Of a DNA stretch of 64,000 bases, positions 3,128 to 57,237 are shown one piece after another. Position 1 is the stretch's first letter; the number at the start of each line of letters is the position of its first letter. The translations under genes were made by a program, and so were the position numbers. Below the pieces are notes generated by a model. It was not told where the DNA came from and ran no database searches. It saw only the letters and a program-made list of their open reading frames with translations. Origin of the DNA: Sipunculus nudus (taxonomy: Eukaryota > Annelida > Sipuncula > Golfingiida > Sipunculidae); the NCBI GenBank assembly GCA_026874595.1, contig CM049316.1, positions 9,972,839-10,036,838 on the forward strand, read 5' to 3'.

Positions 3128-4480
3128 ACGTCTCGATAAGCAATCAGCAAGTACATTGTCTTTCCCTTTAATGTGTTTGATTTCAAGGTTGTAATCTTAT
3201 AAGAACAAATTCCATCTCAACAATCTTTGATTTTTACACTTCAACCTGTTCATGAACGTGGGGTTATTGTGATCACTGAAGACAATGACAGGCCTGACTG
3301 ATGAAGTAACATAAACTTCAAAATGGTGCAATGCCAAAATCAAAGCCAAACATTCTTTTTCAATAGTGGAGTAGTTTTTTTCTGGTTTGCATTAAACTTT
3401 CTTGAGAAATAACAAATTGTATAATCTATGCCATCATTGCCCTCTTGTAACAACACCGCACCAGCAGCAGTATCACTAGCGTCTACGGCTAACTTAAAAG
3501 GCACAGAAAAGTCTGGAGCTGCCAAAACTGGTGAACTTTGCAGAATTCCTTTCAAATTCTGAAATGCATTTTCAGTCTGAACATTCCATACAAATTTTTG
3601 TTTCTTCCTTAACAAATTAGTCAAAGGTCCAGCTACAGCAGAAAAATTTGGACAAAACTTCCTGTAGTATCCAACCATACCAAGAAAACGCATTATTTGC
3701 TTTTTGTTTTCTGGTCTAGGAAATGTAGAAATAGCATTAATCCTAGCATCAACAGGTTTTACATGACCCCGCCCGTCAATACGACCCAAAAATGTTACTT
3801 GTGCATGACAAAACTCAGATTTAACTAAGTTGACGGTCAGACGTGCTTCACTGAGTCTTTCGAAGAGGTCGCGAAGAATTTGCAGATTTTTCTCCCAGGT
3901 GCCGCTGTACACGATGAGGTCATCAATATATGCGTCGCAGCCCTTAATGTCCTTGACAACTATATGGATGAGGCGATGGAACGTGGCTGGCGAGTTGTTT
4001 ATGCCAAATGGCATAACTTTATACTGGTACAGTCCATGCGGCGTCACAAATGCGGACACTTCTTTCGCTCGTTCTGTCAGCGGAACTTGCCGGTCTTAGC
4101 AAGTCAAACTTGGAGACATATCTGGAGCTACCGACTCTATCAATGCAATCATCGATCCTCGGAATCGGGAACGTGTCAGTCTTGGTGGCAGAGTTCAGTT
4201 TTCGATAATCTGTGCACATACTGTGACTTCCATCAAGGTTAAACACAAAAATACATGGTGAACTCCAGTTACTATTACTAGGTTCAATAAAACCATTGAC
4301 CAGCTAATATTGAATCTCATCCTGTAGATAATTTTGCTTTTCTGGATTTAGTCTATATGGATGTTGCTTGACTGCGCTTGCCTCACCAACATCGATGTCA
4401 TGGTGAAATATGTTAGTTCGCGTTGGAATGTCACTAAACAAATGCTCATAATTCCGCAGCAGGTTCTTGAGGTCTTCTTG
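3128..4480 (-). pseudogene. Reverse transcriptase-RNase H region of the Gmr1-like element (broken)
   Basis: Visible RT pieces in order: the N-terminal fingers after EHLFSDIPTRTNIFHHDIDV (about 4445), CTDYRKLNSATKTDTFPIP and VSKFDLL (4246-4090), GLYQYKVMPFGINNSPATFH, the catalytic YIDD box (about 3930), and a FLG-type motif (about 3800). RNase H follows with LAVDASDTAAGAVLL (about 3490), FSDHNNP (about 3260) and KGKDNVLADCLSR ending near 3128. The frame is broken near 4050-4090 (shift within motif A to B), near 3340-3350 and by an in-frame TAA near 3200. RNase H ends only about 130 bp before the polypurine tract, with no integrase downstream of it, which fixes the unusual gene order. This is the gypsy-type RT fold by motif, not copia. 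Confidence 0.92.
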
Positions 4481-4626
4481 TTGTTGTGCGGTAAGGTGTG
4501 ACAGTTTGGCATCCAGGTAGTTAAGCACGTCTGAGTTTTTTAATGGTACTGTACCACACTGAATGTCTACATCACACTTACTATAAGTATCTACTTTAAC
4601 TGGGTCAGGGTCAGTGTTTACACAAT

Positions 4627-5850
4627 TTAAAGCAGTAACATTATATACAACATCTGATGTGCTATTTCTGTATAATATGGTTTCAGCATGTAAACATGGC
4701 ACAGTAGTTTTTTTTTACGTCTATCTGTTGTCAACAGTATGTAATTTAAATCACTGACTTTCTTGTCAACAATGTAAGGACCAAAATACCTAGCTTGCAG
4801 AGGTCTGCCAGGGAAGGGAAGTAAGGCAAGGACCTTTTCACCAGGCTCAAACGTCCTACTTACACTGTGCTTGTCATATTTTGTTTTCATTTTACTTTGT
4901 GCAGATTTTAAATCTCACAAGCATTGTGTAATTTAGTGGGAAATTCTGAGACATACTGCAGTAAATTAAGAGAATCATGATTTTCACACAAAAGTTTTTT
5001 TAGCAGTTTCAAAGGACCGCGAAAGGAGTGTCCAAAAACTAGTTCAAAGGGACTGAAACCCAAGGACTCTTGAAAGGATTCTCTGACAGCAAACAGCAAT
5101 AGGTGGATTCCTTCATCCCAGTTTTTCTGTGTGTCATAGTAATAAGTCCTGATCATGTTTTTAATGTCTGGTGAAAACGCTCGAGGGCGCCCTAACTTTC
5201 AGGATCGTATGGCGAAGAGCTGTACTGTTTTATACCTAGCTCAGGCATAACTTGCTGGAATAAGCCAGACATAAAATTAGACCCTTGGTCAGACTGGACG
5301 GATTTTGGTAATCCAAACGTTTTAAAAAACTTGGTCAGAGCTTTGACAACACCTTTGGCATTAATTTTGCGCAATGGTATTGCTTCAGGGAACCTGGTAG
5401 ATGCGCACATTATTGTCAGCAAGTATTCATGTCCAGATTTTGTTTTTGGCAATGGTCCAACACAGTCTACTGAATGGTTCCTCGAAAGCAGGAATAGGCC
5501 TAAGTGGGGCCTTAGGAGGATTCTGATTGGGCTTGCCTACCATCTGGCATGTATGGCATGATTTACAATATTGTATAACAGCTTTCCTGAGGTAAGGCCA
5601 ATAGAAGTGTGTACTAACTTTCTAATAAGTTTTATTTATACCTAAACGGCGAGACAAAGGAGCCTCATGAGCCATGCTTAGAATTTCATTGCGAAAGCTT
5701 TTGGGCATTACTATTTTATGTTTGATGGCCCACTCATCATCAGCGCATACATCAGGTGGTTGCATTTTACGCATAAGCACCCCATTTTTAACATAGAAAC
5801 AAACTGAGTTCTGCGACAGTTCATCTTCAGAAACTGCCCTGGGAAACAAA
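4627..5850 (-). pseudogene. Integrase region of the Gmr1-like element (broken)
   Basis: An HHCC-type zinc region spans about 5850-5540: AHEAPLSRRLGINKTY, in which the second His is Arg, then an in-frame TAG, then FYWPYLRKAV and CKSCHTCQ. The DDE core follows: VDCVGPLPKTKSGHEY (first Asp, about 5450), VQSDQGSNFMSG (second Asp, about 5285) and ALERFHQT (catalytic Glu, about 5175). After it come SPFELVFG (about 5050) and a GPY/F module, ARYFGPYIVDKKVSDLNYIL (about 4790). A frameshift precedes the first Asp, a stop lies just before the Glu, and another frame change is seen around 4690-4900. The domain sits between protease and RT, upstream of RT, unlike canonical Ty3/gypsy elements. Confidence 0.92.
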
Positions 5851-6434
5851 CATGAAATATCAGGGTCCTTGTGCTGTTCTGGGATAAGTTCTGACCTTGA
5901 GAATGCTGCATCCTGTTCAGGCGAGTCGTTAGACGAGTCACTAGTGACTCCCAGAGTGTTATTATATGGAGGATTATCCTCATGTGTGTTCTCTTGGCCA
6001 TAGATCTAGTGACAGCACATGAAGGATACAAACCAGGAATTTCCTGACTTTCCGGATGTGTCCTGATCTAGTGACGGCTTTTCTGTCACTATTGGTACAG
6101 GCTGTACTTTATCACCTGCAACATCATTGCCTAGTTGGAACTGAATTCCCTTAAAGAGTAAAGTATTTCTTATGCCCACAGTAATATTCACAGAAATCAA
6201 ATCTGACTTTAAATGGATACTGTGAAGCGGAACTGAAGTGTACCTGTCTGAAAACACACCATTAACAAGTGCATGTGCACCAGTAAAGGACCTATTAGAA
6301 AATGGCAAAGTGTTTGCTAACATGAGAGTCTGGCCTGAACCAGTGTCCCTCAAAATTCTAATAGGGGTAGAATCTGAAAAATCACTCGAAAGTGATACAA
6401 AACCATTATATATGAATGGCTCAAATAACTCCAT
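5711..6434 (-). pseudogene. Aspartic protease and protease-integrase linker
   Basis: The minus-strand frame 6434-6006 contains ILRDTGSGQTLML, the DTGS active-site motif of retroelement aspartic proteases. It is followed 75-80 residues later by QLGNDVAGDKV, which corresponds to the C-terminal substrate-pocket motif of gypsy proteases. The next open frame (6031-5711) has CAVTRSMAKR, a linker leading into integrase. The protease would cut the Gag-Pol polyprotein. Upstream, 6764-6435 is acidic and repetitive, rich in Asp, Ser and Glu, and joins Gag to protease. The frame is interrupted around 6006-6031. Confidence 0.88.
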
Positions 6435-6764
6435 TTCAGAGTCAATAGAGGAATCTACTACCTAAACCTCATCAAACAAAGAACTGACATTGAAAGTGTC
6501 AGTCATAAACTCTGTTTTTAGAGTCATCTAAGGAATCTACATCCTTTTTATCATCAAACACCTCATGGGAGTCAACAGAGGAATTTTCCTCAGCAGAAAC
6601 AAACTTCTGTTTGTCATAAGAGTACCTGGCCTCATTTGAAAGACTCTCGCAAGAGTCATAAAAGGACTTAGTCTTATTTAGAGAATACTCCTTGCAGGAG
6701 TCTTGAAAGGACCTAGCCTTATTAAGTTCCTCGCAGGAATCAACTGAGGTTTTTACCCCGCAAG

Positions 6765-8060
6765 CTACGGATTCTTTTTGGATTCAGACGGCACTCGGGC
6801 CTCCGTAGCATCAAACTCTTTATTAGAGTCAATAAAGGAGTTGTACCCCTTATTTACATGGAATGAGCCTGGCTCTTGCACTATGCTATGCATAGACTTT
6901 GAAACAAAACCAGAAGGTTTGCTATTTGGCTTATTCGCAAGTTTCCAGCAGTCAGATATTAGATGACCTTCCTTCTTGCAGTAATTACAGATTTTCTTTG
7001 AAAATGACTGGCTTTGGTTGGACTTAGACACAGTGGACGTGGACTGAGATGTAGCAATGGACTTTGCTTAACTATCAGGACTACCAGTACTGGGTGACTG
7101 CGCTGTAAACTTCTTTTGACCATACTGATTTACATTCTTGTTTGTGAATGACTGGTTTGATTTGCTAGTAAAGGACATTTTGTGTGTTAATGAATAATCA
7201 TCAGCTAATTGAGCCGCAATGTGTAGTGTTTCAGGACTTTTCTCATCAAGAAAAGTTTTAACATATGCGTTAATGCAACGCTTAAATTCTTCAAGCAAAA
7301 TCAACTGGCGCAAATTGTCATAATCTTTCATTACTTTTTAAGAACCACACCAGCGATCAAACAACTGCTCTTTTGTCCTAGCAAATTTGACGCAGGTCTG
7401 ATCTTTGCGCTTTTCCCAATTTCTGAATTTCTGGATGTAAGCCTCCGGAACTAACTCATAACCTTTTAGGATTAACCGTTTTACCAGGCCATTGTCAGCA
7501 GGAGCTTCTACTGCAAACTTTGTATAAATTTCTTTGGCCTTGCCAGTCAATACACTTTGAAATAGCATTGTCCAATTATCCTTAGGGCATTTTAAATTTT
7601 CAGCTTCCTTCTCAAAGTGTAAGAAATATTTATCAACCTTTTTTTCTTGAAAAGGTGGGACAAATCTAATGTGTTTAGTAACATCGAAACTGTGAGTTGG
7701 GGCAGCACTTACACTATGTTCTAGTTTAAGTCTTTCTAACTCCAGTCGTTTTAACTCAACTTCCCTCTCTTCTCTCAGTTTTTCTAATTCTAACTGTTTT
7801 AACCTTTCATGTTCTTCCCTCTCTAAGAGGTGCTAGCTCATGTTGCATTTCCAACTTTTAAAATTCTAATTGCATAGCAAGGCTGTCATTTTTTGATGTT
7901 TTAACTTCACTCTCTTCAATTAAACCTTTGCTAACTAGATCTTGCATGATTTTTTTAGCCCCAAGTGTTGTCCCAAACGCAACAAATGTTACTTTGTCAA
8001 CTGTTAAAGTTGATCAGGGTCGGGATCGTTAACAAATGTCTCAGGTTTGAAATCTGCCAT
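6765..8060 (-). pseudogene. Gag of the Gmr1-like element, with SCAN-like capsid segment and zinc knuckle
   Basis: The best start is the ATG at 8060 (MADFKPETFVNDPDPDQL). A charged coiled-coil-like stretch rich in Glu, Arg and Leu follows (about 7850-7720). Then comes a capsid-like region with YFLHFEKEAENLK and WTMLFQSVLTGKAKEIY (7620-7510). ELVPEAYIQKFRNWEKR (about 7455) through FARTKEQLFDRW, then DNLRQLILLEEFKRCINAYV and PETLHIAAQLADDY (7320-7190), closely resemble the helices of the vertebrate SCAN domain. A CCHC zinc knuckle CNYCKKEGHLISDC lies near 6990. In-frame stops occur at about 8005, 7855, 7338 and 7068, with at least one frame shift near 7830. Gag would package element RNA; this copy cannot make it intact. 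Confidence 0.9.
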
Positions 8061-30795: not shown

Positions 30796-30839
30796 TCAGA
30801 CAATGGCTGACAATGAGACAATGAGACTGGGCAATGAGA

Positions 30840-31350
30840 GTTGGCATTCTCTTTTTGTGGCAAGAGGACCACCAGGCTGGAATTGCCCTCATTAAGCAAC
30901 TTGTCAGGAATGCCATAGGTCATAAATATTACGACATGAGAAACCTCCTTTCGCTTGAAGTCGATGCATCGATGAAGGGATTTGGGGCAGCCCTAGTACA
31001 GGAAGAAATACCAATTAACTTTGCTAGCAAGGCTTTGAGCTCAACGCAGTCGAACCACAGCAACATTGAGAGAGAGGGCCTAGTCGTCGTACATGGAATA
31101 CAAATATTCCACCACTACTTATTCGAAAAGGGAATTCACAATAGTATCAGACTGCAAACCCCTCGAGATAATTTTCAAGAAACCCCTTCACTCAACGTCG
31201 CCTCCTCTCAAGAGCATGATGGTGTAAGTGCAAGGGTACAATTTTAATGCCAAGTACCGTCCTGGACCAGAGATGACAATCCCAGACCCTCTGTCCAGAC
31301 TACCAAACCCAGCCAGATTGAGGGACTACATTTTTCACCACCCCGTGGAT
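30840..31350 (+). pseudogene. RT C-terminus and RNase H of the second Ty3/gypsy element
   Basis: The plus-strand frame begins within the RT thumb (FLWQEDHQAGIALIKQLV). RNase H follows: LSLEVDASMKGFGAALVQEE (catalytic Asp in VDAS), INFASKALSSTQSNHSNIE (Glu in NIERE) and IFHHYLF. A frame change near 31140-31230 leads to YNFNAKYRPGPEMTIPDPLS, the end of RNase H. The RT palm with its catalytic YxDD is absent, and the gag fragment upstream is separated by foreign DNA, so a large internal deletion has occurred. Confidence 0.85.
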
Positions 31351-31379
31351 AAGCTGCAGATTGTCATTGACAACATCTC

Positions 31380-32537
31380 TTGCGACCTGCTGAACTTCTC
31401 TGCTGCGAAACAAGAACAGATTCGACTAGAAACCATGCGCAATCCAGTTTGAGTGCTTTAGCACAAATCATCTACACTGGATGGCCCGAAGAAATCAAGC
31501 AATTACCAAACCACCTGCGCGAATTTCGGAGCTACCGTGACGAGCTCGCCATAGAAAAACGGTATCATATTCAAGGGACGCCAAATCCTCATCCAACGCC
31601 AATCCGCCGTCACATTCTGACCAAGCTCCACATTGGACATCAAGGAACCGAAAAGGTCTATAAGGTGGCAAGGGACAGCGTTTTCTAGCCTCGGCTTCCC
31701 AAGGACACAGAGAAAGTCATTAACGGCTGCCACGAATATCAGACCATGCGGCCATCCAATCCCTAAGTACCGACAGTGTCACATGAAACCCCTCCCCCGC
31801 ACCATGGGATAAACTGGGTACAGACTTCTTAACGGCTGAGGGCAAGGACTATCTATTAGTAGCAGATTACCACAGTCTATACCCCATTGTTGTAGAAATC
31901 CCGTCACAGTCGGCACGTACAGTAATAGCGGAGACCAAGAAGGTTCTTAGCCTGTTTGGAGTGCCAAGAGACACAGTGTCAGACAACGGCCCATGTTTTA
32001 CCTCTGAATATGACAGTTTCTCCACTGAATGGGGGATCCAACACACCACCAGCAGCCCCAGATATCTAAATCGAATGGATTTATTGAAAATCGTGTCAAG
32101 TACGTAAGGAACACAATACAAAAGTGTACACGTTCAAAGCAAGACATCAACAGAGGCCTGCTTAACCTACGCGCTGCCCCCATAGACAATGTGCTTCAAA
32201 GCCCGGCAAAAAAAATCCTTTTCTCTCGTCCGATAGCCACAGTACTACTTGCCGATCAACCACGTCCCCCAAAGCTTAAGGGGATCAACACCGACAGAGA
32301 GCATTGGTCCAGCGAGCATTCGCAGATACCCACATCAAGCCAGAGATAAGGGTCCTTGATAAAGGCACAAATGAATGGCACCCCGCTAGAGTGTTATCGC
32401 GTGACAGAGAACGTAAATACACCGTTAAAACGGAAGAAACAGGCACCATCTTAGGGAGGCCCAGGCGAATATGGCCACCCTTGCGACACACCCAAGGCCG
32501 ACGGCTTCTGCGCCACCAACGGGAATCCCTCCTATAA
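31380..32537 (+). pseudogene. Integrase of the second Ty3/gypsy element
   Basis: Zinc region: HILTKLHIGHQGTEKVY, then NGCHEYQ, where the second Cys of CxxC is Tyr. Core: WDKLGTDFLTAEGKDYLLVA (first Asp), VSDNGPCFTSEY (second Asp, about 31980) and SNGFIENRV (Glu, about 32080). The C-terminus contains DKGTNEWHPARVLSRDRE (about 32360-32410). Stops or shifts occur near 31688, 31765, 32040 and 32290. Integrase follows RNase H, the ordinary Ty3/gypsy order, in contrast to the element at 2204-8911. No LTR could be assigned. Confidence 0.85.
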
Positions 32538-36077: not shown

Positions 36078-39000
36078 CGCCTCGATTATTGGTTTATTTC
36101 GAGAAATTTATTTGATTTCATTTCAGCTGTAAACATTGGATATTCTAACCATAGTGATCACAACCCAGTTTTTGTTTCCATTGGAAATAATAAGCAAATT
36201 AAAAAAGGAAATGGTTTATGGAAGCTAAACGCATAATTTTTGAATGATAAAGAATATATCAAATTAATAAAGAATGAGATATCTAACTGGCTTGAAGATA
36301 TATCAGGTACTAACGACCCCAGAATTATATGGGAATATTTTAAATACAAAATTAGACAAGTGTCAATTAATTATGGAAAAGAAAGAGTAAAGAGAAATAA
36401 GGACAGAGAGAAGGATTTAGAGGAAAAAATTAAAAACCTGGAAAAGAGAAACTCAAAGAATAAAACAGTGAGGAAACTAATATTAAATGATGGACAAGTT
36501 GTTGAGAATAACAAACAGATCTTGAAGCAGATTGTTAATTTTTATGAAACTTTATATTCCTTCACCATTCTTGGCGTTCAGCAATGTAATTTAAATAATT
36601 CAAATATGAGTAATAATATTTCTCTTAATACTGGAGATCAAACTATTTGTGAAGGTAAATTAAGTATAGAGGAATGTCACAAAGCTTTAATGCTTATGAA
36701 AGCATTATGAAAAAAGTCCAGGGAATGATGGAATTTGTTCTGAATTTTATAAATATTTCTGGCCTATGTTTGGAAAATATTTAGTTGAAAGTCTTAATTA
36801 TTCACATGAAGTTGGCGAATTGTCACCTTCCTAAAAACAAGCAGTTAATTATATTACCTTAATAGATAAAAAAAAAAGATCGCACAAAACTTAAAAATTG
36901 GAGGCCTATTTCACTGTTAAATGTCGACTATAAAATAGGATCAAAAGCACTTTCTCTAAGATTACAAAAAGTAATTCCCAAATTAATTCATTCAAATCAG
37001 TTTGGATATGTTAAAGGGAGAGACATTTTTACCTGTATCAGACTTTTAACAGAAATTATGAATTATACCAAAAGATATAGAAAGGAAGGCTTGATATTAG
37101 CACGTGATTTTGAAAAAGCTTTCGACTCCTTGGAATGGCCATTTTGATTAAAGTTTTGCAGTATTTTAATTTTGGACCATCATTTATTTGTTGGATTGAA
37201 ACAGTTTATAAAAATATTAAAAGTTGTATAATAAATAATGGCACAACATCTCAGTACTTTCCAATTGGTAGAGGTGTGAGACAGGGTGACCCATCGTCTC
37301 CATATTTATTCATTCTTTGTATTGAAATTTTGGCTATACAAATTAGAAATAATGATAACATTAGAGGAATTAACATTTTTAGACAAGAAATTAAATTACT
37401 TCTCTTTGCTGATGATATGATAGCAGTTCTGTCCAATCCTGATTCTGCAAGAAACTTAATAGAAGAAGTTAAAATGTTTAAAAAGATATCTGGGTTAACA
37501 CTGAACATAGAAAAAACAGAAGCTATGTGGATTGGTTCAAAGAGGAATGACATAGAAAAAGCATTAAATATTAATTGGTCAAAATCGCACATAAAAATAC
37601 TGGGCATATATTTTTCATATAGCAAAGAAAAGGCTGCTTATTTAAATTGTGAAGACAAAATAAAAAAAATGAGGTTAGCAGCCCAAATTTGGAAAACAAG
37701 AAATTTGACCTTGTTAGGTAAGATTCAGATTATTAGGTCATATTTAGTCTAATCTTTTCAATATATATTTACATGTGTCGATACACCTTTGAAATATAGA
37801 AAAGAAATTGATAAAATAATTTTTTCCTTTCTGTGGAATTCTGGGAAGGAACAACTAAAAAGGATCCTTCTAATTCAACCAGTGACTGCAGGGGGATTGA
37901 ATGTTCCTCATGTTGATAGTATAATACAAACATATAAGATAACATGGATTTTAAAGCATATTTCAAACCAAAGAAAAGAAGTGACAGACATATGGAAAAA
38001 TATGCTTGCAACCATTGGATTAGATTTCGATCTACTTTTGCATTGTGACTATGGTTATGATTTTATTTCTAATCTAGAAGATGAACATCAGTTTCTGTCG
38101 TGTATATTTAAAATCTGGAAAAAAATCAAATCAGTGAAGCCGATAGTAGATCAGGTAATATGGTATAATGGTAACATTGGTACTGATAGTGTTACTTTTT
38201 TTTAGTAAAAACTTGTATGAATCAGGCTTACTTTATGTTAATAATTTATTTGACCTTGATGGAAAATTAATCCCTTTTAAAACATGGCAAAACAAAGGTG
38301 TTAAACAATTGGAATATATAAAATTGAGAGCAGTAGTTGAAAAGGTGAAAATATCTTGTAAAATATATGATATTGATGTATTTAGTATATCAAGTGAGTA
38401 TTCTGATGAGTTGTTAATATCTGAGAACAGAGTGGGTATACCACTCAAACAGTGTAACTCAAGACGCTTGTTTAATGTATTTGTTGCTCTTTTACATGAT
38501 AAGCAATTTATTTCTAAGATATAAAAATATTGTTATGATATTGATAAAATTGATTGGAGTAAAATTTGTTTGTTACCATTTAAATTATGTCAAGATACTC
38601 AAACAAAATGTTTTCAGTATAAAATGTTACAGGATATCTCAGTAAATATCTATTGGCTGATGAAATGGGGACTGAAGGACAATAGTAATTGTACTTTTTG
38701 TCGTAAAGAAATAGAAACAGCTGAGCACCTGTATTGGTCATGTGATTGTGTTCAATGTATTTGGCAGCAAGCACACAATATATTTGACTTAGGATATAAT
38801 GAGAATTTCTTAAATAAAAATGATGTCCTTCTTGGTAATCCTGATTTTACAGACAGTTTAAATCTATTTATTGTTCTGAGTAAACGCTACATTTATTTGA
38901 GCAGGCAGAAACAAATTATTGTTTCATTTACAGGATTAAAAAAATACCTTGCATATGTTAAAAATATTGAATTTCTTATTGCAAGGAAGAATAACAGAAT

Positions 39001-39402
39001 TAGTAAATTCCATGACAGGTGGTCCAATATTCAAATATAAGTGTTCATACATAATAATCACAAGTGTATACGATTTTCTTTTTATATATTGAGGGTTTCT
39101 GATCATGTTTTGTGTTTTGTGTTAAACTAAAAATTAGGCTAGTTCTCGACTTAATTATAGTAACCATATGCAGATTTGTGTTTTGTATATGTGTGTGTTG
39201 CTTGTGTACATTTATTTGCAAATATGTGTTTATGTTTATGGATATATATATGATTATGAATACACATATGTATGGTATGTATACATGTATGTATATGTAT
39301 ATATATGTGTTTGAATTTTGTAATGAGTTGCAAAATGTTAACGTGCATATATCCTTGTACACGTTTGTATATGTTTGGAGAAATAAACATTTAAAAAAAA
39401 AA
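36078..39402 (+). pseudogene. L1/Tx1-like LINE ORF2, 5'-truncated and broken
   Basis: Begins inside the endonuclease: RLDYWFISRNLFDFISA, then the conserved SDHNPVFVSIG (about 36150). After a stop comes the linker (WLEDISGTNDPRIIWEYFKY). Reverse transcriptase: SPGNDGICSEFYKYFW, NWRPISLLNVDYKIGSKALS (about 36895), ARDFEKAFDSLEW (Asp of motif A, about 37100), GRGVRQGDPSSPYLFILCIE (motif B) and LLLFADDMIAVL (catalytic FADD, about 37400). C-terminal zinc cluster: CTFCRKEIETAEHLYWSC (about 38690). The 3' UTR has AATAAA (39382-39387) and ends in an A tract (39393-39402). Stops at about 36236, 36709, 37130, 37750, 38203 and 38522 disable it. RT would copy its own RNA at a nicked target. Confidence 0.9.
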
Positions 39403-50092: not shown

Positions 50093-51873
50093 GATCAAAT
50101 ATCAGTTCAGTAACACGGGTCCACCTTGTGAATAGCAGACGACCAAACAATGGCCTTAATTACTGTCAATAGGCGGGTTAAACCTTGGGACTATGTAAAA
50201 GACTTCTTTGAGTGAGAAAAAAATATAATATTGTATTGTTCATTGGGTTACCATAACCCTCCAGAAAACCGATCAAAACCTGTTCATTGAATTTGCTTGA
50301 AGTTGCAAATACAAAAACTGATCAAAGAACCAACGAAGCCAGGGGGAACACAATACGACGGAGGGATAATAAATCATTTTCAGCAGCCAGAAATTACCGT
50401 CGCATCATCAGGACGCAAGTATGCCCGCCTGCCGAGTTATGTTGCCAGTCCTATAGACTGGTTTATTTGTCTCGCTTGAAGCATCAGATCTCCATCAGAA
50501 AAATAATGACTTTCAATTTATCATGTGAAGGTTTCAAGGACAAATCATGTTGTAACAGATTAAATGAAGACTCCTATAAGCTAGGAAATTGATTCTGTTG
50601 GTGTTGGCCAGTTTTATAAGACAGACAGGTTCAATGACCTGGCCTCAGCCGAATATAATACGGAGTGTGCCATTACGTTCGAGATCTTGATATCTCATTG
50701 GAAACAGAAACAAGCGCGCACACAGTAAAACACACATGCACAAATCAAAATATAAACCGGAATATAGCACATATCTGGTTTTGTAAGTGGTAGAGTAAGA
50801 TCTAGAAAATCACAAAACTAATGATCGGAAGATAGACGACAAAGTGAGTTAATTGTGGTAAACCATGTAATTTCCACACCATTATAAATTTTACAAATGC
50901 AATTTTCGCCAGCAGATGCTTTTTCGGCGCCAAGGCCTTTTATCTAGCAATTTTTACAATTGAAAAAGGAAGTCTGAACAAATGAAATCAGCTGGCTTAT
51001 GTAAAAAAAAATAAAAACTGTATAGCTATTTTTAAGATTTGTGAATTATTATTTAAGGCTTTGCCTGGTAATAGGATTTTTAAAAGCCAGCTATTCACCT
51101 ACCATTTTAAAATATAATTGATGTGATTTTTTGCTTACTCTGCGAATATATTAATGAACTGAAGGTAATTTACGTTAAGAAAAGCCAAATAAAGCCACGT
51201 GTGACGGATAATGAGCTTGTTTATCTACATGCTCTTAGTAAACACAGCAGTGGCAAACAGAGAAACCTTGTAACATAAGGTGTTTGTTTGTAAATGTACA
51301 TGAGTTGAAAGGTCACTAGTTGCAAAACGCAACTTGCGAAATCATGGCTCATCTGACTTCCCGCCAGGCGTCCTTGTTGAATGAGTTTCGATATTTTTTC
51401 GCCGGGCTCCCCACATGTTATAAACCCGTGGATGTAGACAAAACGAAACGCCTGGGCCTGCGTTTTCGGGCCTGTTTTTATAAAAAAAAAGTTTCAAGGA
51501 ATTATCTTTATTAAATATATCGAATTTATTCAGCTATCAAAACATGCCCCTTAAAGTTGTCAGTCCAACAACGGTATGTTAACACAACTATTCATATTAT
51601 TCTCTGGGGACCAATTACTACGGGTAATTTGCATCAGTAACTCTGATCCTTAGTAACTTCCAGCAGGGAGGTTATAAAAATTTGTTTGACAGCAGGTTTA
51701 CTCAAATGCTTCTGAAACTATTTCACAATAAACATGGGTGGAACATAAACTAGGATCTATTAAATGGTGATGAGGATCCCAATAAAGCACCGATTCCAGT
51801 CGGATTGATATGCTGAGGTAGACGTATGCGCTATACTAAGTTATAGAACAAGAATACACAGGAAAGTCGGATC
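50093..51873. other. No recognisable gene
   Basis: AT-rich; short open frames without support. Confidence 0.45.
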
Positions 51874-51945
51874 ACCCCGTATGGGAATCATACCCCATGA
51901 CCCTCCGATTGTCGGTCGTCTGCTCTACCACTGAGCAAACAGGGA
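51874..51945 (-). repeat. tRNA-derived SINE head
   Basis: The minus strand reads TTTGCTCAGTGGTAGAGC (A box, about 51922-51939), then a decayed B box GGTATGATTCCC (about 51882-51893). It is close in wording to 42271-42342 (GGTAGAGCA...ACGACCG), so the two may be one SINE family. Confidence 0.55.
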
Positions 51946-52699: not shown

Positions 52700-55065
52700 A
52701 AATAGAGAAAAAATGCGTAAACTTCATGCGTTATCCATGCAAAGCATGGTGGTCTCTGGATAAGTTGTTCAGATATTTCAGCTTTTGTTTAAAATTTTTC
52801 ATTTTTCTGAGGGATACTTTGGAGTCCTATAGCTTGAAGGATATGGGTAACAGAGACCTAATTTCAGGTTTCCACAGACTCTTTTCATGGACCTCCTTGC
52901 ATGACAAGAATGAAGATTCTAGGTCCAGTTGTTACAATTTGTACCCTGTTGACAGATAACCACATCATAAAGGTCTCAAAAATAGAGAAAATAATTCGTA
53001 AAAATTTGAAAAAAATAGAGGTGGCGCACCCAGTCTGCTGAAACTGATGGAACACGTCATGATCAATATGTATGCAAAAATTCATGAGCATCAATGTTGT
53101 AGTTATTGAGATACTGGAGTTTTTGTATCAAATTTTTTATTATTCTGGGGGGGGGGGGGTACTTTGGAGCCATACAGCTTAATGGATATGGGCAACAGAG
53201 ACCTTATTTCAGGTTCCCATATAGATTTTTCATGGGTCTCCCTGTGTGTAAAGAATGAAGATTCTATGTCCAGTTGTTATGAATTGTGCCCTGTTAACAG
53301 ATGTTCATATCTTTAAAGGTCCCAAAAATAGAGAAAAAAATTCGAAAAAAAGCCTGAACAAATACATGTGTACGCTCCCAAGGCAGCGGAAATCTTGCGC
53401 TTCTAAAGAAGCAACTGATTTTCACGCTGCCAGCTTTGACCGTTTATGATATATTTAGACACCAGATGGCGGTTTGTTGTCCACTGAAATAAACGTGCGT
53501 ATGATGTGACAAGCAGCCAATCAGATACCAATAAACAAACACTCGACAGGCATCCTGGCTCCGCCCATTGCCGCGCTTCAAGCGCCGTTTGATGAGTTTC
53601 CGGTCGAATTTAAATTGCTCCCTCTGCATTCTCGCATCAGCGACCGATTCGATTATGACATTATGACTGTGTTAGAGTAGCCATGTATCTGTTCTGCAGA
53701 ACTGAAACCAGCCAGCGAGGTGTGCACGAAGCCTTTGTTGTTACGTTTCGTTTGAATTACAGCTTCCTATGTGCCCAAGGCCCTAAGCAAACCACGTCAG
53801 GGGCAATTCTCTCTGAGCCTGTGGCCTGTTTAGACGGTTACGCTGGGGGATGAGCTGTCACTCAAAAGAAATGAATATGATTGGCTCCGTGTATTCCTCG
53901 CTTGGCTTTGTCTTCCAGCACAAAGTTTCATCTGATTGGACAAAAATACAGTGCTCCCCTCTGGTGTTGCAAAGCAGGATACGAGGTCATAACAAACAGC
54001 GCCTTACGATATAGGAAGTAGCCCTATAGGTAAAGCGCTGTGTTAAGAGCGTAATACATGTGGTGCCACCAGGCTGCAGAAACTGATGAAACACTCTATG
54101 ACCAATATCCATACAAACAATTATGGTGATCTCTGCATTAGTTGTTCAGATACTTCAGCTTTTGTATCAAATTTTCCATTAATCTGAACTGTACTTTGGA
54201 GTGCCACAGCTCAAAGGATATGGGTAACAGAGACCTAATTTCATGTTCCCTGGAGACTTTACATGGGTCTCCCTGTGTGTCAAGAATGAAGATTCTAGGT
54301 CCAGTCGTTACAATTTGAACCCTGTTGACAGATAACTACATCCTTAAAGGTCTCAAAAATAGAGAAAAAAATTGTAAAACTTGGAAAAATACAGGTGGCG
54401 CCACTATTCTGCAGAAACTGATGAAACATCTCATGATCAATATGTATGCCAAAAATCATGACCATCAGAGATGTAGTTAATCAGATATTGAATTTTTTTA
54501 TGAAACTTTTGACTATTCTGGGGGGTACTTTGGGGCCCCATAGCTCAAAGAATATGGGTAACGGAGACCTTATTTCTGGTTTCCATAGAGACATTTCATA
54601 GGTCTCTCAGAATGTAAAGAATGAAGATTCAAGGTCCAGTTGTAATGATTTGAGCCCTGTCAACAGATGTTCACATTTTTAAAGGTCTCAAAAATAGAGA
54701 AAACAACTCGTAAAAAAAAACTTAAAATACAGGTGGCGCCACCAGTCTGCAGAAACTGATGAAACATCTCATGATGAATATGTATGCCAAAAATCATGAC
54801 CATCAGTGATGTACTTAATGAGATATTGAAGTTAGGAAATTTTTGACTGTTCTGGGGGGTACTTTGGGTCCCCATAGCTCGAAGGATATCGGTAATAGAG
54901 AGGTTTCCAAGGATATTTTTCATGGACCTCTCTGGATGTAAAGTAAGAAGATTCCAGGTTCAGCGGTTACGATTTGTGCCCTGTTAACGGACAGACGCCC
55001 GGACGGACGACGGACAAAAGGTGATCCTATAGCTCAGATGACTTACAGTCAGCTGAGCTAAAAAC
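52700..55065 (+). repeat. Tandem array of about 340-bp monomers with a terminal hairpin
   Basis: Five monomers. The landmark TACTTTGG recurs at 52815, 53160, 54192, 54526 and 54860. After removal of the 692-bp insertion in the third, the periods are 345, 340, 334 and 334. Each has GAAACTGATG(A/G)AACA, a CCATAGCTC-like phrase, GGTAACAGAGACC and AATAGAGAAAA. The array ends in a shared terminal block (about 54970-55065) with GACGGACGACGGAC and a hairpin at 55031-55059 (AGCTCAG/CTGAGCT plus TGAC/GTCA, loop TTACA), then CTAAAAA. The minus-strand copy at 24110 has the same end. Tandem cores plus a terminal hairpin recall the pearl elements of oysters or Helentron-related non-autonomous elements. 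Confidence 0.88.
53371..54053. mobile_element. Non-autonomous DNA element with 9-bp target duplication, copy 1
   Basis: 683 bp with ends TACGCTC and GAGCGTA (perfect 7-bp inverted ends), flanked by the direct repeat ATACATGTG (53362-53370 and 54054-54062). It interrupts a monomer of the 340-bp array. It is near-identical to 55675-56372. No transposase-like frame. A 9-bp duplication is typical of Mutator-like (MULE) transposition. Confidence 0.9.
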
Positions 55066-55346
55066 AAAATCTTTGTCACGTTCGAACATTATTGACTTTT
55101 AACCTACTTTTCAAGGTCACAGAGCTATTTATAACAAAAATCTGGTGAGCTTATTTCACAGGAACCACGTAATAGACCATTAAGAAACAAGGTGTCATTC
55201 TTGGCCTAGATGACCTGTAACTGCTGCATCTGCTTGAGGGTGTCACCTACAGTATCTTAATTGTTATAAATTATTATCACTTTTTTGGTCACGCGAAAAG
55301 GACACCGTCAGTAATTAAACATAGGCATTTCGTTTTTTTTTTCGGG

Positions 55347-55400
<54 letters not shown>
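55066..55400. other. Spacer ending in a (TA)n tract
   Basis: No feature except the (TA)n run at about 55348-55399, directly abutting the Penelope-like relic. Confidence 0.6.
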
Positions 55401-55403
<3 letters not shown>

Positions 55404-55409
55404 TATGGT

Positions 55410-55476
55410 AAGTGAAGGACTGAGTCACTACCGCCGGTTTCGCCTCATCGGCTCATCAGATGACATCATTCATCTT
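55410..55476 (-). ncRNA. Hammerhead ribozyme, type I, complete core
   Basis: Minus strand, 5' to 3'. Stem I is GUCAU (55464-55460) pairing with GUGAC (55428-55424), extended beyond an internal loop by AAGAUGAA/UUCACUU with one bulge. The core is CUGAUGA (55459-55453). Stem II is GCC-GAUGA-GGC. The second core strand is GAA with A15.1. Stem III is only 3 bp, ACC-GGC-GGU. Self-cleavage is predicted after A17 (position 55429), GUA|GUGAC. All 13 conserved core bases are present. Very short stem III is characteristic of the hammerheads found in Penelope-like elements and metazoan retrozymes, which often act as dimers. The pairing was worked out by hand. Confidence 0.9.
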
Positions 55477-55485
55477 CTACGATGC

Positions 55486-56486
55486 ACCCGCTGTGTACGC
55501 GGAAAGCAACGGTGCTGTTAATACGTACATTGACATGATCGGAGGCCCTTTTGAACAAAGATTCTACAACCAAAACAAATCATTTAAGCACAGAAACTCA
55601 CTCAAACGAAACAGAACTCGCCAAACCGGTGCAACTTGTGTTTGGTAGAAAAACTGGCAATCCTTAGCCCAAGATACGCTCCCGAGGCAGCGGAAATCTT
55701 GCGCTTCTAAAGAAGCAACCGATTTTCACGCTGCCAGCTTTGACCGTTTATGATATATTTAGACACCAGATGGCGGTTCGTTTTCCACTGAAATAAACGT
55801 GCGTAAGATGTGACAAGCAGCCAATCAGATGCCAATAAACAAACACTCGACAGGCATCCTGGCTCCGCCCATTGCTGCGCTTCAAGCGCCGCTTATGAGT
55901 TTCCGGTCGAATTTAAATTGCTCCCTCTGCATTCTCGCATCATCGAACGATTCGATTATGACATTATGACTGTGTTAGCGTAGCCATGTATCTGTTGTCT
56001 GCAGAACTGAAACCAGCAAGCGAGGTGTGCACGCAGCCTTTGTTGTTACGTTTCGTTTGAATTACAGCTCACCGGCCGAGCATCCTATGTGCCCAAGGCC
56101 CTAAGCAAACCACGTCAGGGGCAATTCTCTCTGAGCCTGTGGCCTGTTCAGACGGTTACGCTGGGGGATGAGCTGTCACTCAAAAAGAAATTAATATGAT
56201 TGACTCTGTGTATTCCTCGCTTGGCTTTGTCTTCCAGCACAAGGTCTCATCTGATTGGACAAAAATACAGTGCTCCCCTCTGGTGTTGCAATTCAGGATA
56301 CGAGGTCATAACAAACAGCGCCTTACGATATAGGAAGTAGCCCTATAGGTAAAGCGCTGTGTAAAGAGCGCAAGCCCAAGACAAAGGAACTTGCTGAACA
56401 AACGCTCCGAAATTGTATCCATTTGTCCCCATGGATCAACGGCACCCAACCGTGCGAAAAAAAACCCGATAAAACCGACATCGTAG
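55486..56486 (+). pseudogene. GIY-YIG endonuclease remnant of the Penelope-like element
   Basis: The frame from about 55497 has VYAESNGAVNTYIDMIGG (the YIG motif is YID here), then FEQRFYNQNKSFKHR, the FxxRxxxHxxSF region of PLE endonucleases. A shift near 55615 is needed to read TELAK, which holds the catalytic Glu. After the inserted DNA element (55675-56372 plus duplication) the C-terminus reads NLLNKRSEIVSICPHGS and stops at TAG 56484-56486. About 50 residues between TELAK and LLNKRSE, which include the usual CxLC zinc-like motif, are missing. In PLEs this domain nicks the target for reverse transcription. This copy is inactive. Confidence 0.78.
55675..56372. mobile_element. Non-autonomous DNA element with 9-bp target duplication, copy 2
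   Basis: 698 bp, ends TACGCTC and GAGCGCA, flanked by AGCCCAAGA on both sides (55666-55674 and 56373-56381). It aligns end to end with 53371-54053, with few differences, the main one being about 14 extra bp (CACCGGCCGAGCAT, near 56070). It lies inside the endonuclease remnant of the Penelope-like element. Confidence 0.9.
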
Positions 56487-56499
56487 AAGTTGTATGTCA

Positions 56500-56540
56500 G
56501 TCATCTGATGAACTTATGAGGCAAAACCGATGATAGTAAC
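56500..56540 (+). ncRNA. Decayed hammerhead ribozyme in the right Penelope terminal repeat
   Basis: Plus strand, homologous to the left-arm ribozyme. CUGAUGA (56505-56511) is intact and stem I GUCAU is kept, but the second core strand GAA reads AAA (G12 lost), stem II has an A-C mismatch, stem III has a C-A mismatch and the stem I 3' strand is GUAAC. It is probably inactive. It begins 14 nt after the endonuclease stop codon and is on the coding strand, the position expected in a PLE transcript. Confidence 0.8.
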
Positions 56541-56638
56541 CCATATCTATCACTTACCTATAATATACCATGTTCTGTTACTTAACATATAGCGCTGTGT
56601 GACCGCGGAGTAAAGACTGCATTTTCGCAGATCATATC

Positions 56639-56640
<2 letters not shown>

Positions 56641-56691
<51 letters not shown>
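56641..56691. repeat. (CA)n(TA)n microsatellite
   Basis: A short CACA run leads into TA repeats directly beside the second hammerhead. Confidence 0.95.
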
Positions 56692-56700
56692 CTGAAGAAA

Positions 56701-56767
56701 AACAACACTGTAAATTCACTACAGTCTGTTTCACGGGATGCGACCATATCATCAGGTGAATGTTGTT
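56701..56767 (-). ncRNA. Second hammerhead ribozyme, type I, different family
   Basis: Minus strand. Stem I is AUUCAC (56761-56756) with GUGAAU (56719-56714), 6 bp. After a 7-nt internal loop it extends by a further perfect 6 bp, AACAAC (56767-56762) with GUUGUU (56706-56701). Core CUGAUGA (56755-56749). Stem II spans 56748-56733 and is imperfect (AUGG/CCGU with one unpaired U next to the core). GAA is at 56732-56730. Stem III is ACA-GAC-UGU. Cleavage is predicted after A17 at 56720. The architecture equals that of 55410-55476 but the sequence differs, so it is a separate family, also set against a (TA)n tract. No Penelope coding remnant is seen next to it. It could be a PLE terminal repeat or a retrozyme remnant. 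Confidence 0.85.
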
Positions 56768-57237
56768 AGAATGAAGCCAACGGCGTGGATTGAATGGATT
56801 TAAAAGCCCAGACTTTAAGAGATTACGAGATTATGCTTTGTGTGTACCATAGAGAGCAAGTAAATGACTGACACTGATCCTATTGTTCTGGGGGCACAGT
56901 AGGATTGGTCGGGGTACATGTGCGATACTGGAACATAACAGGGCAAAGAGTTGCGTTGTTGTTTTAATATTTTATTATTTAATACAAAGATATTTTTATA
57001 AGGATGCCAATTAGCATAGTAAGCTGATATTTCATAGGGTCCATGGTAAGTGAATATTTCAGTAGTATACACATATGATATAAAATTCACATATACCATG
57101 AAAATACACATTATAAAAAGCAAATATACAATATAAAAGCAAATATACTATACCCATACCAAGTGGACTCGACTCGACAAACTCATCATATGGTAGTGGC
57201 AACGTCTTGTCCCCCAACACTACAAAGCAGTGAGAGA

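Follow-up and report, generated by a model that had tools for sequence, protein, structure and literature searches.

We describe a hammerhead ribozyme motif in a 64,000-nucleotide stretch of the Sipunculus nudus genome (contig CM049316.1, positions 9,972,839 to 10,036,838; here called the window, with positions counted from its first base). The motif is very probably a type I-like hammerhead whose stem III is short (3 bp), carried in the pseudo-long terminal repeat (pseudo-LTR) of a Penelope-like element (PLE), a retrotransposon of what we call family 1. The assignment draws on a base-by-base reading of the motif, on its copies elsewhere in the genome, and on a second PLE family that, to judge from the aligned sequences, carries its own hammerhead with paired changes in three stems.

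A complete hammerhead core in the window

All conserved hammerhead bases are present when the minus strand is read from 55464 to 55424, with the core base C3 at 55459 and an A as H17 at 55429. The parts of the motif, all on the minus strand, are:

55424 to 55464: the whole hammerhead ribozyme, from sequence reading, descriptor scan and genome copies
55464-55460 (5' GTCAT) with 55428-55424 (3' GTGAC): stem I, 5 bp, the first pair a U-G wobble
55459-55453: core CTGATGA, read from sequence
55452-55450 (GCC) with 55444-55442 (GGC): stem II, 3 bp, loop GATGA
55441-55439: core GAA, read from sequence
55438-55436 (ACC) with 55432-55430 (GGT): stem III, 3 bp, loop GGC
between 55429 and 55428: predicted cleavage site, placed by the position of H17

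The preliminary description of this DNA had reported a complete core with paired stems I, II and III, which can be seen base by base, and had predicted cleavage after 55429, which agrees with the position of H17. A descriptor requiring the core, at least 5 bp in stem I, at least 3 in stem II and at least 2 in stem III found this motif as its single match in the window, and matched 1 of 1500 dinucleotide shuffles of the window. Judged by its bases and its relatives, the hammerhead in the window is real; as the only complete copy there it appears to be a relic, which may or may not have kept the ability to cut.

Family-1 copies across the genome

The genome searched comprises 153 contigs, 1,426,538,692 bases in all. 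Querying it with 131 bases yielded 41 matches (40 of 297 candidates were scored), and 40 of 356 candidates were scored in another search for copies. A hammerhead profile run on 39 fetched loci and the window returned 45 hammerhead regions, of which 37 form the family-1 alignment; the minus-strand region of L020, L026, L033, two regions of L040, two of L043, and L046 were omitted as short or gapped. All 12 core positions are kept in 26 of the 37 aligned regions, the full core being present in the minus-strand copy of the window and not in its plus-strand copy, and 91.8% of 439 stem cells are paired.

The context of the motif is best seen in a tandem family-1 copy, C4, in which two hammerheads stand as a direct repeat 2359 nt apart and flank a frame-shifted coding region for a reverse transcriptase (RT) and an endonuclease (EN). 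The last codon of the open reading frame (ORF) lies 37 nt upstream of the second hammerhead; about 165 nt downstream of the first predicted cleavage site there is an ATG (MNRFNFNYS...). This copy represents subfamily D, with C at N7 and C at H17. By eye, the family-1 ORF pieces contain the telomerase-like RT motifs FDIVDFYPS and RDDG. We considered dual coding of the hammerhead, as the motif reads as an open frame, and dropped it: the PLE ORF ends upstream of the motif and in another phase. A search of the open literature found no paper on this element.

A second family and covariation between families

An EN fragment translated from L018 was used as a query and gave 150 scored matches among 1650 candidates. 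These fall into rough groups: family 1 (53 to 75% identity, frames mostly broken), a few at 44 to 47%, and a second family at about 40%. Family 2 has 713-aa open frames in 11 of the 150 scored rows, some in tandem about 2.92 kb apart, and from its sequences looks young and perhaps active. We note that these frames occur on C1, C3, C4, C5 and C7, several in tandem or head to head and with equal scores; one of them, L050, was read. In L050, whose open frame is 713 aa long, 2935 nt separate two hammerheads, of which the second runs off the edge of the locus; stem II is CGGG/CCCG and stem III is ACA/TGT. A relaxed descriptor found a hammerhead in 12 of the 24 loci L048 to L071; in several of the 12 negative loci the region is lost or decayed. 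Three of these loci (L064, L065 and L066), with EN sequences 44 to 47% identical to the query, have no hammerhead within 1.3 kb, and perhaps represent a third PLE group without a ribozyme.

The protein assignments are consistent with a PLE. TERT is the top match of the family-2 protein model in both Foldseek and VIA-align, with a diversity-generating retroelement (DGR) RT within 1 Z in VIA-align. Pfam searches gave no GIY-YIG match in L050 itself or in the EN fragment; PF01541 (GIY-YIG) is above its cut-off in a relative, P0001, on the part that aligns to the L050 EN. The eight best structure matches of the EN fold, which we take to be GIY-YIG nucleases, are weak (E 0.32 to 1.6), and a sequence search of the PDB gave no match at E≤0.1.

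Across families, we aligned 27 hand-chosen rows (25 distinct; L055 was omitted from the 28 listed), in which 92.0% of 299 cells pair. One pair in each of stems I, II and III shows two-sided changes between families 1 and 2. Cells changed on both sides number 15, compared with a shuffled mean of 4.3, and none of 500 shuffles was as high; the covariation score lies above all shuffles, and slid registers pair only 23 to 55% of cells. These changes are differences between two families, and so amount roughly to one event per pair.

Several results weigh against the hammerhead assignment. No Rfam hammerhead model matched the window at the gathering threshold, and covariance searches gave no hammerhead at E≤5 in the whole window or at E≤10 in 4 kb. 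The significant Infernal match proposed as a check in the preliminary description was thus not obtained: when 105 bases were searched, RF00163 scored 13.8 bits (E 0.83, cut-off 34) and RF03152 scored 11.9 bits (E 9.5, cut-off 56.3), both sub-threshold. Within family 1 there are no two-sided, compensatory changes in the 439 cells of 37 rows, so the stems are consistent there and are not proven by covariation. Finally, two of the five cross-family covariation measures are no better than shuffles (two-sided pairs, 3 versus 2.5; pair types, 11 versus 10.8). With the Rfam test failed, other evidence had to decide, and we judge that the genome copies and the pairing across families outweigh the failure. 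A curated Rfam score is a detection rule and not a defining feature of a ribozyme, and the Rfam hammerhead models probably cover minimal PLE variants poorly.

Anatomy of the insertion in the window

The complete hammerhead lies in one arm of a two-armed insertion. The long-end arm is on the plus strand and runs from about 55507 (possibly about 20 bases earlier) to 56638. In order along the window, the features are:

55346 to 55400, no strand: (AT)n microsatellite, target-type sequence at the short-end side, read from sequence
55401 to 55484, minus strand: inverted short-end arm of a family-1 PLE with the complete hammerhead (blastn to the family reference, +59 to -26 from C3, 87%)
55508 to 55674, plus strand: what is left of the GIY-YIG-type EN in the long-end arm, frame-shifted and missing an internal piece near 55626 (translation, relatives and blastn map)
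55675 to 56372: another inserted repeat, about 698 bp, between 9-bp direct repeats AGCCCAAGA (55666-55674 and 56373-56381)
56373 to 56638, plus strand: remainder of the long-end arm, with ORF end, decayed hammerhead and tail (blastn, 56372-56638 matching the family reference from -132 to +132, 86%)
56505 to 56535, plus strand: decayed hammerhead copy, G12 changed to A, stems II and III broken
56562 to 56644, plus strand: tail, which separates the short from the long 3' end (nhmmer, 85.3 bits)
56641 to 56690, no strand: (CA)n(TA)n run at the long-end side, read from sequence
56689 to 56794, minus strand: piece of a family-2 PLE that carries a decayed hammerhead of its own, with C3 at 56755 and a weakened stem II (nhmmer, 76.2 bits to the L050 hammerhead region)

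Both arms are dead. The decay of the plus-strand hammerhead, by eye, consists mostly of transitions, several of them at CpG. The preliminary description had placed the complete hammerhead in an inverted terminal repeat of a Penelope-like element, and the genome copies support this, the repeat being an inverted pseudo-LTR arm; the decay of the same-strand copy and the endonuclease remnant, which begins on the plus strand at about 55508 and is borne out by its translation, likewise hold. What had been called notable, that the complete copy faces opposite to the endonuclease remnant, proves to be the ordinary head-to-head arrangement of a PLE insertion, found at no fewer than 24 of 72 loci and, in passages of PMC3846280, in published PLEs.

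The family-2 fragment adjoins the (TA)n run that closes the family-1 insertion; it spans 56681 to 57150, the end at 57150 resting on a repeat shared with L010. The inserted repeat of about 698 bp has a second copy at 53371-54054, the two being 95 to 98% alike by segments, and the right copy (55675-56372) has short, imperfect inverted ends (TACGCTC / GAGCGCA).

End sites of family-1 insertions

We numbered positions from C3 as 0, which puts the predicted cleavage between +30 and +31. Copies end either at about +59 to +62 (short) or at +131 to +133 (long, with the tail), that is, about 30 or 100 nt past the predicted cleavage site. The 72 loci together have 43 short ends and 52 long ones. Twenty-four loci are two-armed and inverted, and 23 of these combine a long with a short end, one has two long ends, and none has two short ends; arms facing away from each other are therefore common in family 1, not an oddity. 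Another 20 loci have a short end only, 27 a long end only, and one has neither, these single-arm counts being upper bounds as 51 loci are under 1 kb. Although the first query favored short ends and the tail query long ends, neither bias accounts for the absence of short-short insertions. Two loci that are two-armed by eye are not among the 24: L048 is outside the set and an arm of L030 missed the end limits.

The insertion sites are AT-rich. Of the 43 short ends, 39 have a run of (AT)6 or longer no more than 60 nt away (a figure possibly inflated, as the first query included part of an AT run), as do 34 of 50 long ends (two flanks were too short), compared with 14 of 1140 background 60-mers. 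Such sites, tandem or inverted pseudo-LTRs, an optional tail and 5' truncation are hallmarks of PLEs; inverted arms of which one may bear a tail (passages of PMC3846280), and a pair of internal RT start sites with AT-rich targets (PMC11167929), have been published for other PLEs.

The inner ends of the arms bear on whether the templates had been cut. In the tail-query set, 24 of 41 long-end arms extend at least 10 nt beyond the predicted cleavage site; no arm of the 41 has its end at 26 to 35, that is, within about 4 nt of it; in an earlier set one arm (L027) ends at 31, BLAST ends being uncertain by several bases. Short-end arms were excluded from the read-through count, as they were mostly found through the hammerhead itself. 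Since long-end arms read through the site and none ends at it, most of those templates did not arise by cleavage there, and the 3' hammerhead, as read from these ends, stayed uncut in many of the templates that were copied. Run-off from cut RNA, which predicts stops at +31, was accordingly rejected (0 of 41 within 26 to 35). Collision of reverse transcripts at the short site was also set aside: an apparent pile-up near +61 was not upheld, with 5 of 41 ends within 55 to 67 and 20 of 41 spread over 17 to 68.

Folding and alternative explanations

In a single copy of the window motif, the hammerhead is not the predicted minimum (-8.2 versus -13.1 kcal/mol). With two copies, the predicted minimum is a double hammerhead for the window and subfamily D sequences, and is a different structure for those of L010 and L050. 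Loop III is mostly G-N-C in the 27-row alignment (G in 26 of 27, a variable middle base, C in 24 of 27); such a loop cannot pair in the monomer, and two copies form 8 of 9 pairs. Native loops rank 2 and 11 of 64 for favoring the two-copy form. The palindromic loop III thus suggests, in these predictions, a double hammerhead.

The same features could mean that the region is mainly an RNA dimerization signal, joining two templates through its self-complementary stem III, with cleavage secondary. The G-N-C loop, the double-hammerhead minimum and the pairing of a long with a short arm in 23 of 24 insertions would all fit. Nonetheless, we regard this as unlikely: the L010 and L050 minima differ, the subfamily D loop ranks only 11 of 64, and dimer cleavage by PLE hammerheads, an idea already published (a title cited in PMC7761336), accounts for the same feature.

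Still less probable is a chance resemblance, or a conservation unrelated to RNA cleavage that reflects few recent source elements or coding. The lack of compensatory change among the family-1 stems is what this would predict, and the motif is open in one phase (QSSDELMRQNR in the plus-strand copy of the window); however, the motif recurs with paired changes in the three stems of family 2, whose EN is only about 40% identical, the PLE frame stops short of it, and shuffled sequence almost never matches the descriptor.

The poorest candidate is a non-autonomous animal retrozyme, which would consist of short units in tandem, bear type I hammerheads and move as small RNA circles; although retrozymes hold most classical type I hammerheads of animal genomes (in passages of PMC7229834) and many copies here are just 100 to 400 bp long, the short copies derive by 5' truncation from a unit that encodes RT and EN, the direct repeats (one locus per family, 2359 nt for family 1 and 2935 nt for family 2) are coding and not the non-coding units of about 170 to 400 nt of a retrozyme, and no short tandem array of same-strand hammerheads is seen by eye among the profile hits (L043 has two same-strand hits about 430 nt apart), so that the coding units largely refute it.

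Comparison with known systems

Minimal type I hammerheads of PLEs have been described (Cervera and de la Pena 2014; Lunse et al. 2017, as cited in PMC7761336 and PMC6155905), and their cleavage as dimers is published, according to a title and a sentence in PMC7761336. The family-1 motif resembles them, as these citing texts present them, in its place in a pseudo-LTR, its short stem III and the tandem or dimer action expected of it. Unlike those hammerheads, which reportedly usually have no stem III, both families here have a 3-bp stem III with a G-N-C loop.

Another close parallel is Poseidon PAc of Anolis carolinensis (PMC11167929), which has an RT with a C-terminal GIY-YIG, a hammerhead at the junction of pseudo-LTR and ORF, AT-rich targets, two sites downstream of the hammerhead at which RT starts, and a tail that is the stretch between the two sites. 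In vitro, uncut PAc RNA is the main template and hammerhead mutants still insert (PMC11167929), with which the read-through of long-end arms here agrees. The PAc start codon lies inside the hammerhead, whereas here the ATG is about 165 nt after the predicted cleavage site, and PAc is described with stems I and II, to which the present motif adds stem III. The Penelope elements of Adineta vaga (passages of PMC3846280) similarly have head-to-head inverted pseudo-LTRs, a tail optionally on one of them, and 5' truncation; in the main text of that paper the word hammerhead is absent. Animal non-LTR retrozymes, which are present in molluscs, share the type I hammerhead and differ in being about 170 to 400 nt long with no RT of their own (passages of PMC7229834), in contrast to the coding units of 2.4 to 2.9 kb here.

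Other observations

The window is rich in transposons: ORFs at 3343-7832 (minus strand), 30825-32346 (plus) and 36237-39037 (plus) are, by eye, two Gypsy-type pol remnants and one RT of the long interspersed nuclear element (LINE) type. A unit of about 335 bp occurs in four direct copies within 53012-54991, three of them consecutive from 54051. A tRNA-like match at 51873-51945 (minus strand; 31.6 bits, Rfam cut-off 29), for which ARAGORN makes no call, is possibly the head of a tRNA-derived repeat. In the assembly at large, a COI query found no mitochondrial contig and only open frames of 577-578 aa at 42 to 44% identity, on contigs C60, C61, C62, C66, C72, C74, C75 and C89; these look like bacterial cox1, and the assembly may hold bacterial sequence.

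Mechanism and implications

The type I-like hammerhead in a family-1 pseudo-LTR, the reading in which we place high confidence, comes with a plausible mechanism. The element's protein would nick both strands of an AT-rich target, and reverse transcription would be primed internally on each strand, at the short site on one and the long site on the other. The two cDNAs would then be joined head to head, giving arms that face away from each other, as in the window. Most likely acting as a double hammerhead formed from two copies, the ribozyme would release unit-length RNA from tandem transcripts. A more elaborate version seems doubtful to us: one protein dimer would act per insertion, with the short site on one strand and the long on the other in a nearly invariant split of roles (as in the 23 long-short, one long-long and no short-short insertions), the G-N-C stem III would join the templates, and the ribozyme would pair first and cut later. 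If this were true, the role of the ribozyme in PLE mobility would be readable from the junctions of dead copies.

A ribozyme of this kind in this kind of element is already known, and the window motif is one of many genome copies. Added here are the family context, the second hammerhead-bearing PLE family, the covariation between families, the long-short rule in numbers, and a 3' hammerhead that appears uncut in many templates. Rfam hammerhead models can miss such variants. The role of PLE hammerheads is called unknown in a passage of the review PMC7761336, and in this genome two PLE families have hammerheads that look intact, one family with 713-aa tandem frames, and there are hundreds of candidate copies. 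The ends of these copies indicate that many templates were uncut at the 3' hammerhead and that each end of an insertion has its own start site. Both points agree with what PAc does in vitro (PMC11167929), and the copies provide a natural data set for testing that work.
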